This document shows, piece by piece, positions 57,166 to 62,050 of a stretch of 64,000 bases of DNA. The notes below the pieces were generated by a model. It had not been told where the DNA came from, did not search any database, and saw only the letters and a list, made by a program, of their open reading frames with translations. The first letter of the stretch is position 1, and the number at the start of each line of letters is the position of its first letter. Origin of the DNA: Planctomycetota bacterium (GTDB lineage Bacteria; Planctomycetota; Phycisphaerae; Phycisphaerales; UBA1924); the NCBI GenBank assembly GCA_963204725.1, contig CAUJHH010000054.1, forward strand, positions 62,001-126,000, given 5' to 3'. The translations under genes were made by a program, and so were the position numbers.

Positions 57166-57248
57166 TGGGCGCGGAGGGATTCGAACCCCCGTAGGCATAA
57201 GCCAGCGGATTTACAATCCGCCCCGATTGGCCACTCCGGCACGCGCCC
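57166..57248 (-). tRNA. tRNA-Tyr (anticodon GUA)
   Basis: 83-base tRNA on the minus strand. Acceptor GGGCGCG (5' end at 57248) pairs with CGCGCCC, with discriminator A at 57166. The anticodon stem GCGGA/TCCGC holds loop TTGTAAA with GTA, and the long variable arm marks a class II tRNA. The T arm is GGGGG-TTCGAAT-CCCTC. No CCA is encoded. Confidence 0.95.
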
Positions 57249-57355: not shown

Positions 57356-58861
57356 TCAGTTCCATCGACCACGCAAGAGCCCGCCCGCAATGCTCTGGAT
57401 CGGCCCGAGCACAACCGCATCTCGCCCCTTCATCGATGCGGCCGCGACAAACCCAAGCTCCGCGATCGCTTCGATCGCACGCTCAACGAGATAGCACTCG
57501 GCACAGGGGAGCGCATGGCTTCCGGATTCATCCTTCCACGCGGCGTGCGGCAGGTCGCCGACGATGCACGGCGACCCGAGTTGCATGTCCGGGCCATCGG
57601 ATACCCACGCCTCGACGATCGAGCGAAGCAGGAGCCATCCGCCACCCGCCCAGGACATCGAGCCATGGCCAGCTGCGAGGCCCCGTTCTCCCGCCTCCAG
57701 TTCCTCAAAGGTGAAACTCTCGATCGGTTCGGACCAGACGCCATAAGGGCGCCGCGCGAGCCACCGCGGCATGACCATTGCAACACCGGGGGCTGCATCG
57801 GAGTCTGCAATCGCTCTCCACCCTCTGTACCACGGCTGAGTCCTGGTACTCTGCCAGCGGGCCGGATCGGGCTCGGCTCCAAAGCCCGGACAACCAGCCA
57901 TCGACGCGTCTGCGCTCAGAATGAGCGTCGCCCCGACCGCCGCTGCGGCTTTCGTCAGATGTGCTGCTCGCTCGATCGACGCCTCATCAGCACAAACCGG
58001 TTCAACGAGAAGCACGACATCGGCAGGCCCGGAGGCATCGTCGACACCGCCGCGAATCCAGTCTTGGAGTGAATTCGTGGAAGAAGAGAGCAATCCAGCG
58101 GCATCGGCGACGCTCAAGGACATCACCTCGAATCGAACACGCTCTTCGTCCCATGCGTTCGAGGCGAGGTGATGAAGTACCCGCCAGGCTGATTCGATCC
58201 GAGCGAACCGCTCGTCTCGCAGTGCCGCACGCATCATGGCTGTCAATCGCTGGTCGATCGCTGCCAGCGCCTCTCGCGTGCCGGGCTCGGGCACGCTGGC
58301 ACCCGGTTGGTCCCCCACCACCTTGCGAATGAAAGACCGGATGTCGACGCCAGCGGGCCCACTCTGATCTTTCCGGCCCGCGCCGCTCCCTCGCCCCAGC
58401 AGCCCGGCGAGGTCGTCCGAGCCGCCAGCGGCTGGCGCGGGAGTTGATTCCGTCTTTGCGGTGCCACTCGGCCTCGCGAGCAGACCCAGACTCTCCACCT
58501 CTCGAACGGCTGCCTCGGACGTCGACGCCACCTTGAGCTGCTTGCGCAGCGCGAGCAGGCGAGCCATCCAGGGCAGCGATCTCGCGATGGCATCCGGATG
58601 AAGGCTGTCGAGTTCTCGAATCTGAAGGCGAGTCCGATCGCCTTCCCACTCAAACTCCAGGGATATTCCCAACTTGGCGATCGCTCGATCAATCTCTGCA
58701 GGCACGACCACGACCGGCTTTCCGTTCGCGTTGCCTTCCCCGCCAAAGTCACCGACGATCAGGACTCGGAGCGGTCGCTCCGGATCTTGACGCCGATTCG
58801 CCCCTCCACCCGAGGCCGAGAACCCGAGTTCGAAGTCCATTCCGCCGCGCTTCCCAGCCAT
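57356..58861 (-). CDS. TssB/TssC-like contractile-sheath domain protein
   Basis: 501 residues. The N-terminal part (about 28-115) reads like the sheath small subunit TssB: RPLRVLIVGDFGGEG and the LHPDAI motif (residues 87-92). The C-terminal part (about 195-500) resembles the large subunit TssC: ERFARIESAWRVLHHL, MPRWLARRPYGVWSEPIESF and IAELGFVAAASMKGRD. The two sheath proteins are normally separate genes; here they look fused and separated by a Pro/Ala-rich linker. No other type VI secretion gene (baseplate, Hcp, VgrG, ClpV) is in the window. It lies divergent from an FHA/Ser-Thr kinase, a combination known around type VI systems. Confidence 0.7.
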   Translation of the reverse strand: MAGKRGGMDFELGFSASGGGANRRQDPERPLRVLIVGDFGGEGNANGKPVVVVPAEIDRAIAKLGISLEFEWEGDRTRLQIRELDSLHPDAIARSLPWMARLLALRKQLKVASTSEAAVREVESLGLLARPSGTAKTESTPAPAAGGSDDLAGLLGRGSGAGRKDQSGPAGVDIRSFIRKVVGDQPGASVPEPGTREALAAIDQRLTAMMRAALRDERFARIESAWRVLHHLASNAWDEERVRFEVMSLSVADAAGLLSSSTNSLQDWIRGGVDDASGPADVVLLVEPVCADEASIERAAHLTKAAAAVGATLILSADASMAGCPGFGAEPDPARWQSTRTQPWYRGWRAIADSDAAPGVAMVMPRWLARRPYGVWSEPIESFTFEELEAGERGLAAGHGSMSWAGGGWLLLRSIVEAWVSDGPDMQLGSPCIVGDLPHAAWKDESGSHALPCAECYLVERAIEAIAELGFVAAASMKGRDAVVLGPIQSIAGGLLRGRWN

Positions 58862-58959
58862 TCTGGCACCTCACTGGTTCGTTCGACCGCAGATTCGACC
58901 GATCCCAGTCTAACTCCGAACCACCAATCGAGCCCGGAGCCTTCCGAACAGGTATATTC

Positions 58960-58979
58960 AAGAGATCAGATAGTCTCTT
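58960..58979. promoter_or_regulatory. Inverted repeat between sheath-like and kinase genes
   Basis: AAGAGA (58960-58965) and TCTCTT (58974-58979) form a 6-bp inverted repeat with an eight-base spacer. It lies in the 133-base divergent gap, just after TATATT at 58953-58958 and before the kinase start at 58995. A shared operator or promoter element is possible. Confidence 0.3.
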
Positions 58980-58994
58980 CTCGGGATCGCAGGC

Positions 58995-61655
58995 GTGCCC
59001 AAACTGTTTTCACTCCAACTCTCCTACCCGAACGGCAAGGCCGAGCGGCTCGCGCTGCGCTTCGCCGGGCCCGATTCGACACTGACGCTTGGCGCTGCCG
59101 CCAGTGCCGACCTCTGCCTGCCGAATCCGGGTGTCGAGCCCCGCCAGTGCCTATTTCGACTCCTCGACGCCGAAACGCTCTGCGTTGAGAACCTCAGCGA
59201 GTCCTCACCGACCCGCCTCAATGGGCGGCCGACTGAGGGCCCTGAAATGGTCGGCGAAGGTGATTGGGTCGAGTTCGCGGACCTTCTCATCGAGGTCGTG
59301 GCAGAGACAGCCGCCAATCCATATACGGTCGCGGACCCAGCCGAGCTCCCGAAGCCGGCAGCGGCCCCGACGCCACCGGCTCCTCCCACCCCTCCGGCCG
59401 CTCCGACTCCAGCGCCCCCCCAATCCCCTCCTCTCCCTACCCGTGAAAGGCCGGTCTCGCAAGCGAGTGGCACGCCGGCGGTGCCGAAACCAGCCAGCGT
59501 ACCGGTGCCGGCAGATCCGTCCCGCCCCGCCTCGAAGCCGAATTCCGGGCACACCTCGCGAGGAGGCACGAAGATCCCCATCCCGGGCGGTCCGGTTCCA
59601 AAGTCGGCCGTCAATCGCGCCGATACGCCGCGCCCGGCGATCCCCCGCATCGAGATCCCCCGCTCAAGGCCGCTTTCGTCGACAATGACCGCGAAGCCGG
59701 CCGCCCCCCCCACACCGCCACCGAGTCGAAGCGCGACGCCGCCCCCTGAAGCCGTCGAGCCACGCCCCATCCTCCCTCCGGCGTCCGAGACCTCATCGAA
59801 GCCCGTCGCCAAGTCCGCGCCCGCCTCGAAAAAACCGAAACCAGAGCCGGACCCCGCACCCGCGCCACCGCCCCCAGTGCCGGATCCGAATCCCTCGCCA
59901 GAGCCGGAAGCTCGCCCCCCGTCGGTGGCGCCACCCGCATCGTCTCGCCCCAGACAGGCGACATTGCGTCCTGCGACCCGCCCGCCATCGAATGCCCCCC
60001 GGCTCGCGCCGCTCTCCCAGCCCGCACCGCCTCCCCGCACGCATATTGCGTCAACTCCGCCCGCCGCGCCGACAAACCCTCTGGTCTCGCGGGGCATAAG
60101 CCAGCTCCGCGCCGAGTTGCCGCAGCAGACCTCGCCATATTCCGACGAGCACCTGCGGTTGGTCGTCGAGCGAGCACGCCACAACGCCAGCACCCTTGGG
60201 TTCACGGCCGAAGACCACATTCTCTCTTTCCTGAAGTGCGTCATTCTCGTAGGCGACGATCTCGGCTCGAGTGAGTCGAGGGTACCGGACGTTTACTTCT
60301 CCCTGAATCTCCCCGGCAAGACGCCGCTCGTGCGCATCGAGCGAGCTCTCAAGATCGCTCAACGCGTCAACGCTCGGGGGGGAGTAGGCCTCGTCGCCGT
60401 ACCCGGATTCGACAGCCCGGACGAGCGTCCGACGTCCGAGATCCGTGTGCCGCCCCCCGGCTCCATCATGGGGCAGCCACCCGCGCAGGTGCGGGTACCG
60501 ACGGTCGGGCACGGCGTCTCAGAAGAGATCCTGCCCTCGGAGCGTCAGTCTCCTTCGATCCAGCCAACCCAGCAAGGACATCGCGAGCGTGACGTAACTG
60601 ATCCTGTCGCCCCCTCGCCATCCGCGTACGCGTCAGCCCCGGAGCCCGTGCCGCACGATTCCAACAAACTTCCCGAGATCGCGGGCTTCAAGGTCCTCGA
60701 GAAGATCGGCTCGGGGGGCATGGGAACCGTGTATCGCGCCTACCACCACCGCCTTGAGGTCGAGGTCGCGATCAAGGTCTTCAAGACCCTGCATCCGGAA
60801 GCAAAGACGCTGCTCTCCCGTGAGGCGCGTGCCGCGGCCCGCCTGCAGCATCCAAACATCGTGCAGGTGCTCGATTACCAGGAATTCGGCCGTGGCGCCT
60901 ACTTCGCGATGCAACTCGTCAAGGGCGAGGATGCCCACGAGCTCATCCAGCGTGTCTCCGGGCGCCTCGTGCACGAGGCCGAGGCGGATGGCGTCGTCCG
61001 GGCCCTCGGGCTGACGAACGACCAGCTCTCTCCCGAGGCACGGTCGATCCTGCAGGGCAAGCTCCCCTGGCACCGCCTCGTCGCGTGGTGGATGGCCGGC
61101 ATCGCCGACGGGCTCGATCGCGCCCATCGCGAAGGAATCGTGCATCGCGACATCAAGCCCTCCAACCTGCTCCTGGCGCGCGACGGGCGCATGGCCATCA
61201 CCGACTTCGGCCTCGCGCTCCGGAGAGAGGACCACGCCGTCGGCGCCAACACCGCGCGCGCCGGAACACCGCGATACCTCGCTCCCGAGCGGATCGCGGA
61301 CTGGGCCTCGGGCGCCGACCTCTCCGGAACCGACGGACGCATCGACGTGTGGGCGGTCGGCGCGACCATGTACGAGTTGCTGACCTATCGGCCTGCCTAC
61401 GACGGCGCGCGCGAGGCGGTCATGCGCGACATCGTCACGCACGACCCGTTGCCCCCGTCGCAGGTCATCTGGGCCGTCCCACAGGAACTCGACAGGATCT
61501 GCCTCCAGGCGATGAAACGAAACCCGGAAGAACGATTCCAGCAGGCCGGCGAGATGGCTTCCGCCCTCCGATCCTGGCTCATGGGTGAGGGCCCCGCAAA
61601 CAAGGGCCAGGCCCAGCAGGGCGGCATCGCCGGATGGTTCAAGAAAGGGACGTGA
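58995..61655 (+). CDS. FHA-domain serine/threonine protein kinase
   Basis: 886 residues from GTG 58995. Residues about 20-105 form an FHA-like domain (LGAAASADLCLPNPGVEPRQ, NLSESSPTRLNG, GDWVEF), here degenerate in its phospho-threonine-binding loops. Residues about 115-365 are Pro/Ala/Ser-rich linker. A helical and a beta segment follow, with unknown role. The kinase begins at the glycine loop KIGSGGMGTVYRAY (about 570), with Lys in VAIKVF, catalytic HRDIKPSN (about 716) and DFGLAL (about 736). It phosphorylates Ser/Thr on target proteins. Divergent pairing with a sheath-like gene suggests it controls that system, as PpkA does in type VI secretion. Confidence 0.9.
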   Translation: MPKLFSLQLSYPNGKAERLALRFAGPDSTLTLGAAASADLCLPNPGVEPRQCLFRLLDAETLCVENLSESSPTRLNGRPTEGPEMVGEGDWVEFADLLIEVVAETAANPYTVADPAELPKPAAAPTPPAPPTPPAAPTPAPPQSPPLPTRERPVSQASGTPAVPKPASVPVPADPSRPASKPNSGHTSRGGTKIPIPGGPVPKSAVNRADTPRPAIPRIEIPRSRPLSSTMTAKPAAPPTPPPSRSATPPPEAVEPRPILPPASETSSKPVAKSAPASKKPKPEPDPAPAPPPPVPDPNPSPEPEARPPSVAPPASSRPRQATLRPATRPPSNAPRLAPLSQPAPPPRTHIASTPPAAPTNPLVSRGISQLRAELPQQTSPYSDEHLRLVVERARHNASTLGFTAEDHILSFLKCVILVGDDLGSSESRVPDVYFSLNLPGKTPLVRIERALKIAQRVNARGGVGLVAVPGFDSPDERPTSEIRVPPPGSIMGQPPAQVRVPTVGHGVSEEILPSERQSPSIQPTQQGHRERDVTDPVAPSPSAYASAPEPVPHDSNKLPEIAGFKVLEKIGSGGMGTVYRAYHHRLEVEVAIKVFKTLHPEAKTLLSREARAAARLQHPNIVQVLDYQEFGRGAYFAMQLVKGEDAHELIQRVSGRLVHEAEADGVVRALGLTNDQLSPEARSILQGKLPWHRLVAWWMAGIADGLDRAHREGIVHRDIKPSNLLLARDGRMAITDFGLALRREDHAVGANTARAGTPRYLAPERIADWASGADLSGTDGRIDVWAVGATMYELLTYRPAYDGAREAVMRDIVTHDPLPPSQVIWAVPQELDRICLQAMKRNPEERFQQAGEMASALRSWLMGEGPANKGQAQQGGIAGWFKKGT

Positions 61656-61687: not shown

Positions 61688-62050
61688 TCAGTCCTTGAAC
61701 ATCTTCAGCGGCCGCGGACCCGAGCAGCAGATCGGTCGGCCATCGTCGGGCTGGCAGCATCCGCCGCCCGTGCCGGTGCCGACTTGATCGGAGTCGGGAG
61801 CATGGTCTTCGTGACCTGCGAACACCGCCGCGGCGGCGATAAGCCCGAAGCACGCGAGCGGCACCCACACCGGCACCCACACGCCAAATCGCGGCAGCAC
61901 GATCCAGCAGCCCGCCGCGATGGCACACGAGATGACAAACGCGATCACGAGACGCCGGCCGACGCCACGGCCGGATCGGTCGCCGTCGAATCCGCTCGCG
62001 TGCACGAAGTCCGTCTGATCGAGTTGGCTCGTGCGATCAATACGGCCCAT
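61688..62050 (-). CDS. Small membrane protein with Cys-rich tail
   Basis: 120 residues from ATG 62050. Two membrane segments (LVIAFVISCAIAAGCWIVL; VWVPLACFGLIAAAAVFAG) are followed by a short His-Glu-Asp-His motif (HEDHAPD) and a tail with two Cys pairs (GGGCCQPDDGRPICCSGPRP) ending in LKMFKD. The double CC motif could bind metal or form disulfides. I do not recognise the family. It follows the E2 gene on the same strand after 32 bases and may be co-transcribed. Confidence 0.6.
   Translation of the reverse strand: MGRIDRTSQLDQTDFVHASGFDGDRSGRGVGRRLVIAFVISCAIAAGCWIVLPRFGVWVPVWVPLACFGLIAAAAVFAGHEDHAPDSDQVGTGTGGGCCQPDDGRPICCSGPRPLKMFKD

Follow-up and report, generated by a model that had tools for sequence, protein, structure and literature searches.

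The window analysed here is a 64,000-nucleotide stretch of a planctomycete genome of the order Phycisphaerales (assembly GCA_963204725.1, contig CAUJHH010000054.1, forward-strand positions 62,001 to 126,000); the genome is referred to below as G000. Towards the end of the window, a gene divergent from that of an FHA Ser/Thr kinase encodes a protein in which a part resembling TssB is followed by a part resembling TssC, as in the sheath of the type VI secretion system (T6SS). The open reading frame has an ATG start and 501 codons, and we refer to its product as the hybrid. Genes outside annotated records were called with a simple script, and their starts may be off. In the order of the protein chain, the features are the following.

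57356..58861, minus strand: TssB-TssC hybrid, 501 aa, probably a sheath-derived T6SS accessory protein, without handshake domain (open reading frame, Pfam, AlphaFold2 model)
58532..58792, minus strand: TssB/VipA-like core, residues 24-110 (PF05591, 26 bits; family profile against solved TssB chains, E ~1e-12)
58391..58420, minus strand: conserved short motif SDDLAGLLGR, residues 148-157, in the disordered linker (conservation; position of the TssC N-terminal helix motif)
57359..58303, minus strand: TssC N-terminal (wall) domain, residues 187-501, up to the protein end (VIA-align; canonical TssC is ~105 residues longer)

A preliminary description of the locus, made from the letters alone, had already proposed a TssB-like N-terminus and a TssC-like C-terminus in one protein, and profile searches match both halves. 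Pfam places T6SS_VipA (the TssB family, PF05591) at residues 24-110 with 26 bits (cut-off 24), and the VipB N-terminal domain (PF05943) at residues 198-491 with 95 bits (cut-off 27); the TssB-like core covers TssB positions 21-121, and the VGDFGG and LHPD motifs that had been pointed out are both present. The scores against the NCBIfam equivalog models stay below their cut-offs, with 85.3 bits for TssC (TIGR03355, cut-off 271.5) and 26.3 bits, over partial length, for TssB (TIGR03358, cut-off 97.25). Compared with TssB/VipA (PF05591; TIGR03358), the core is alike, but the hybrid stops before the TssB C-terminus and runs on into TssC. Since the halves follow each other as they should and many genomes have full-length relatives, the hybrid is no chance match. 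It is shorter than TssC and its gene evolves faster than the neighbouring genes, as might be expected of a functionless, decaying copy of a tssB-tssC pair. However, dN/dS among relatives is 0.07-0.17, which indicates purifying selection and rules out a degenerate gene, and the identical truncation point and core recur across several phyla in one clade; we therefore give decay next to no credence.

The AlphaFold2 model of the hybrid, built on 21 relatives, has a mean pLDDT of 82, with low values in the first 22 residues and in the linker at residues 131-171. Its comparison with known sheaths agrees with the TssC assignment: VIA-align superimposes hybrid residues 187-501 onto residues 60-397 of TssC1 (5N8N chain B) with a Z of 29.2 and an rmsd of 2.7 for 308 aligned residues, and the next-ranked structural matches are the TssC chains of V. 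cholerae and M. xanthus. Among solved structures, none of the hybrid family itself was found. As modelled, the hybrid chain folds like domain 2, the wall part, of a TssB-TssC heterodimer.

In canonical TssC, the wall domain is followed by a C-terminal handshake domain that takes strands from neighbouring subunits and donates one (PMC5807055). In the P. aeruginosa sheath, TssC contributes its strands 11 and 12 to the handshake sheet, a neighbouring TssC adds strand 13, and strand 1 comes from TssB (PMC5807055). The hybrid chain ends at the equivalent of TssC1 residue 397, and Pfam finds no match to this gpW/gp25-like domain (PF18945) either in the window protein or in the seven further hybrids scanned. 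In the tree alignment, every complete canonical TssC has 103-106 residues beyond the end of the hybrid, most hybrids add 0-3 residues, and five (G412, G325, G342, G166 and Eleftheria) carry a low-complexity tail instead; no extension among the hybrids in the tree matches the handshake domain. The TssC handshake strands would thus lie in the part that the hybrid lacks, and because the chain ends before them, it should possess neither the acceptor strands nor the TssC donor strand. With a wall domain but no handshake domain, the hybrid should be unable to propagate a sheath and could at most join a sheath edge. Relative to TssC/VipB (PF05943 + PF18945; TIGR03355), it is therefore alike in its wall fold, its N-terminal helix motif and its association with T6SS, but differs in lacking PF18945, in being ~105 residues shorter at the C-terminus, in its fusion to TssB and in its separate clade (support 100/100).

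A single fused sheath protein could also be the basis of an independent contractile or filament-forming system. Pyocins, phages and extracellular injection systems have single-chain sheaths, and the hybrid model matches those of pyocins and extracellular injection systems along residues 27-501 with a Z of ~18; three genomes, moreover, have a hybrid without T6SS matches. The single-chain sheaths of pyocin R2, PVC/AFP and phage resemble the hybrid in holding both TssB- and TssC-like wall parts. They keep the handshake strands and polymerise, however, whereas the hybrids in the tree are without the handshake domain. In addition, no tube, baseplate or spike genes lie near the hybrid in the window, and nearly all hosts have a T6SS. 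We consider an independent system very improbable.

Full-length relatives of the hybrid are found in the same genus, family and order and across Planctomycetota, as well as in records labelled Nitrospira, Verrucomicrobia, Ereboglobus, Myxococcales, Deltaproteobacteria and Rhodopirellula baltica, which are metagenome-assembled genomes (MAGs) or genomes. Plasmids of Leisingera, Ruegeria and Eleftheria carry hybrids too; in the regions from Leisingera sp. M527 and Eleftheria terrae, the hybrid is annotated as a T6SS sheath large subunit and is clustered with canonical tssC. In phage records, the only match was weak and partial. A maximum-likelihood tree built on the domain that these proteins share, for which the Leisingera hybrid was cut, places 41 hybrids on one side of a branch of length 1.03 with support 100/100; on the other side are canonical TssC, the tandem TssC2 and a single true full-length fusion of TssB with TssC. 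Judging from these sequences, the hybrids are one family of single origin, separate from canonical TssC and present in at least five phyla. A repeated origin from tssB-tssC operons was considered and is ruled out by the single clade, from which the one true full fusion (L072) stands apart. The family is old and widespread and apparently undescribed, as had been supposed of this sheath-derived protein: open-licence articles were searched for a TssB-TssC fusion, a TssC-like or an orphan TssC protein, and no description was found. Public annotation conceals the hybrids as 'contractile sheath large subunit', and counts of PF05943 matches overestimate the number of sheaths per genome.

Other departures from the canonical tssB-tssC pair were seen in the same comparison. 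The full-length fusion, encoded upstream of tssF (L072:2834-4783, G275), shares the one-chain arrangement with the hybrid but keeps PF18945 and sits in the canonical TssC clade, and represents an independent fusion event. The second TssC of tandem clusters, putatively of the ImpD or TssC40 type by gene order, is like the hybrid an extra TssC paralog in T6SS-bearing genomes; it retains the handshake domain and lies inside the canonical TssC clade, whereas the hybrid does neither. In planctomycete T6SS clusters, such second tssC genes are flanked by tssC on one side and tagJ on the other (L068:3403-5022 and L071:589-2109) and share a branch of their own inside canonical TssC, the handshake domain of the L068 gene being confirmed by Pfam. 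Two long reading frames were also found, one of 2340 aa with TssC at its N-terminus (L075:1933-8955, G394) and one of 1326 aa with several TssB/TssC-like units (L076:5991-9971, G354). At two planctomycete T6SS loci, a PKMT-type methyltransferase gene lies beside the hybrid on the same strand (L068:17874-19655 and L071:13356-14945), and six RebB-family R-body genes lie downstream of the hybrid-containing T6SS cluster on the Eleftheria terrae plasmid (L161:33202-35301).

The genome of the window has a T6SS on another contig, C27, where a single run of genes encodes TssA, TssB, TssC with its handshake domain, Hcp, TagJ/ImpE, a gp25-like TssE, TssF, TssG, a ClpV-like ATPase, VgrG and PAAR; TssK is encoded nearby. 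Whole-genome searches for VipB, TssF and TssK gave, beyond the hybrid, matches on C27 only, and a search of G000, G001 and G003 for TssM (PF06761) gave none. It was thus rightly said that no T6SS genes are near the hybrid, and the term 'orphan' fits the locus but not the genome; Hcp and VgrG genes, for which a search elsewhere had been proposed, are both on C27. The idea of a reduced contractile system does not survive, because the T6SS on C27 has its own tssB and tssC, which the preliminary description had itself named as an outcome that would speak against it, and because the hybrid is without the subunit-joining domain. Within the C27 cluster, a gene for a 3878-aa protein without Pfam match (L023:6281-17917) adjoins tssA and is preceded by one for an FhaC/ShlB-like protein.

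We compared the distribution of the hybrid with that of T6SS genes, largely in draft genomes. In the family sample, canonical tssC is present in 18/18 hybrid genomes versus 55/163 overall (hypergeometric ~4e-10), and in the phylum sample in 17/17, a count read from match coordinates, versus 85/392 overall (hypergeometric ~1e-12); neither value is corrected for relatedness. TssF was found in 34/34 hybrid-bearing planctomycete genomes tested, and in 8/11 hybrid genomes reached through other loci; G002 and G354, which are without TssF in the former search, were not counted as hybrid-bearing. The hybrid lies inside or beside T6SS clusters in G181, G325, G131, G342, Leisingera and Eleftheria, and several hybrids of Myxococcota are a few kilobases from tssC; in the window and in most of the family it lies away from the T6SS cluster. 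In G002, a genome of the same genus, searches for TssC, TssF and TssK gave no match, and a single contig carries the kinase, the tRNA-Tyr gene and a histidine kinase in the same order as in the window, with the hybrid missing between tRNA and kinase. As this assembly is 89% complete and in 270 contigs, its lack of a T6SS could be a gap; its lack of the hybrid could not. From the fold, the family and this distribution, we conclude that the window protein is a T6SS-associated sheath paralog (probability about 0.9).

The linker between the two halves offers a possible clue to its role. Its motif, SDDLAGLLG in the window hybrid and DFExLLG in most relatives, is the most conserved stretch of an otherwise variable, low-pLDDT region, with L155 conserved in 18/21 and L154 in 15/21, and its site corresponds to the TssC helix that is bound by ClpV. 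The equivalent motifs are EFASLL in P. aeruginosa HsiC1 and LLDEIM, the ClpV-bound helix, in V. cholerae (PMC4239648, PMC5048182). TssC of the window's own genome starts with EFESLL, the same class as that of HsiC1. At least seven relatives (Leisingera, Ereboglobus, Eleftheria, G412, G325, G342 and G166) have acidic extensions with 2-12 copies of D-L-D-x-L-L, far exceeding the means of 0.01-0.55 for shuffled sequences. One of them, the 1207-aa hybrid of the Leisingera sp. M527 plasmid (L160:16141-19764), has an acidic N-terminal region of ~620 residues with ten LDxLL motifs and two more such motifs at its C-terminal side; it lies within a T6SS cluster and adjoins vgrG, PAAR and tagH. By analogy with TssC, the linker motif and the repeats may bind ClpV. 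A coevolution of the linker class with the TssC class of the same genome was also considered; the pattern is visible, but it consists of only 2-3 independent pairs and proves nothing.

The hybrid probably serves the T6SS as an accessory, by capping it, adapting it or helping in its recycling. How it would do so is an evenly balanced question, for which we propose a non-propagating sheath paralog that works at the sheath end, engages ClpV, or both. Its target would be the canonical sheath of the C27 cluster, which it would most likely join as a subunit at one end, either as a cap or as an adaptor to the baseplate protein TssE, which is gp25-like. ClpV would be recruited by the linker motif, of which some relatives have repeats in acidic tails, and the hybrid would thereby help to target, time or buffer the recycling of the sheath; the adjacent FHA kinase would not be needed. 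The hybrids may even represent a new and ancient class of T6SS component, in which a TssB-TssC chain ends or starts the sheath, offers from one to a dozen helices as a docking array for ClpV and so sets sheath length or recycling, although we hold this wider proposal only tentatively. The known accessory set of the T6SS (TssA, TagA and TagJ) comes mostly from Proteobacteria, and it is still open what determines the length of the sheath and how ClpV is sent to contracted sheaths only. A widespread sheath paralog that has a wall domain and a ClpV-type helix but no polymerisation domain lends itself as a candidate for either task.

The main competitor of this proposal, doubtful in our view, is a soluble decoy or adaptor directed at ClpV, which would present TssC-like helices and either hold ClpV off extended sheaths or concentrate it at contracted ones, the fold being a mere carrier. 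The conservation of the linker motif, its site and the multiplied copies in the acidic extensions would suit such a role equally. However, conservation of the core fold, in which Trp, Pro and Tyr positions are invariant, goes beyond what a carrier needs; TssC of the EFxxLL class may depend on TagJ rather than on direct binding to ClpV (PMC4239648); and the acidic LDxLL repeats may have a binding partner other than ClpV. Our preference is for an adaptor at the sheath end or baseplate which engages ClpV as well.

Several observations weigh against the T6SS-associated sheath paralog and the mechanism proposed for it. The N-terminal strand with which the hybrid would dock on a neighbour has a pLDDT of <50 in the model. 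A complex of the P. aeruginosa ClpV1 N-domain with an EFASLL-type HsiC1 peptide was not obtained (PMC4239648), so that a ClpV role of the DFExLL form is uncertain. The agreement of linker class with TssC class, in which hybrids from genomes with an LLDxxI-type TssC mostly have LLDQxx or LFxxxL in the linker, amounts to only 2-3 independent comparisons. In G556, G557 and G560, a hybrid is accompanied by neither TssF nor canonical VipB, and the record of G556 is of one chromosome (L147). Finally, the gene is present in only ~1/3 of the family's T6SS-bearing genomes and is thus dispensable for T6SS in general.

The remaining features of the locus flank the hybrid gene on its two sides.

57166..57248, minus strand: tRNA-Tyr(GTA), on the other flank of the hybrid gene (ARAGORN; conserved in G001, G002 and G003)
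58952..58959, plus strand: GTATATTC box upstream of the kinase (four-genome alignment; TATATTC core also in G001, G002 and G003)
58995..61655, plus strand: FHA Ser/Thr kinase, 886 aa, a divergent neighbour that is probably no dedicated partner of the hybrid (Pfam; kept in G002 without hybrid or T6SS; orthologs next to murE-murF-mraY)

The divergent 886-residue kinase is as first described, with an FHA domain at residues 31-94 and a Pkinase domain at residues 565-849 by Pfam. Since the TATATTC core is kept in G001, G002 and G003, the GTATATTC box is probably the kinase promoter, and it can be read as a putative -10 box. The kinase could phosphorylate the hybrid or a partner and so control the assembly of a scaffold, as PpkA and Fha do in T6SS. 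The divergent pair is kept in G000, G001 and G003, FHA proteins adjoin hybrids in a Myxococcales MAG (T6SS_FHA_C, L151) and in G166 (L074), TagH is encoded a few genes from the hybrid in the Leisingera T6SS cluster, and relatives of the N-terminal part of the kinase are mostly in hybrid-bearing genomes. However, the kinase is retained in G002 (L127) without hybrid or T6SS, most genomes have no kinase beside the hybrid, and the orthologs in other genera (G036, G452, G451 and G483) follow genes that Pfam identifies in G036 as those of Mur ligases and MraY, in the order murE-murF-mraY, with an FHA protein downstream. The co-occurrence of sheath-like gene and kinase that had been suggested thus holds within the genus but not beyond it. 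A partnership was also sought among the 163 family genomes and rejected, since relatedness confounds the apparent association, and G002 and the place of the kinase in mur clusters break it. The kinase is neither confined to T6SS genomes nor linked to T6SS genes, as a member of a PpkA/Fha-type pathway should be, and we regard a kinase-regulated scaffold as improbable. FHA proteins beside hybrids at a few unrelated loci fit the general presence of FHA proteins in T6SS clusters. We take the kinase to be the resident gene, beside which the hybrid was gained, or from beside which it was lost in G002.

At L128, L131, L132 and L135, murE-murF-mraY is followed directly by the genes of an FHA Ser/Thr kinase and of another FHA protein, a gene order that suggests kinase control of peptidoglycan synthesis in Phycisphaerae.

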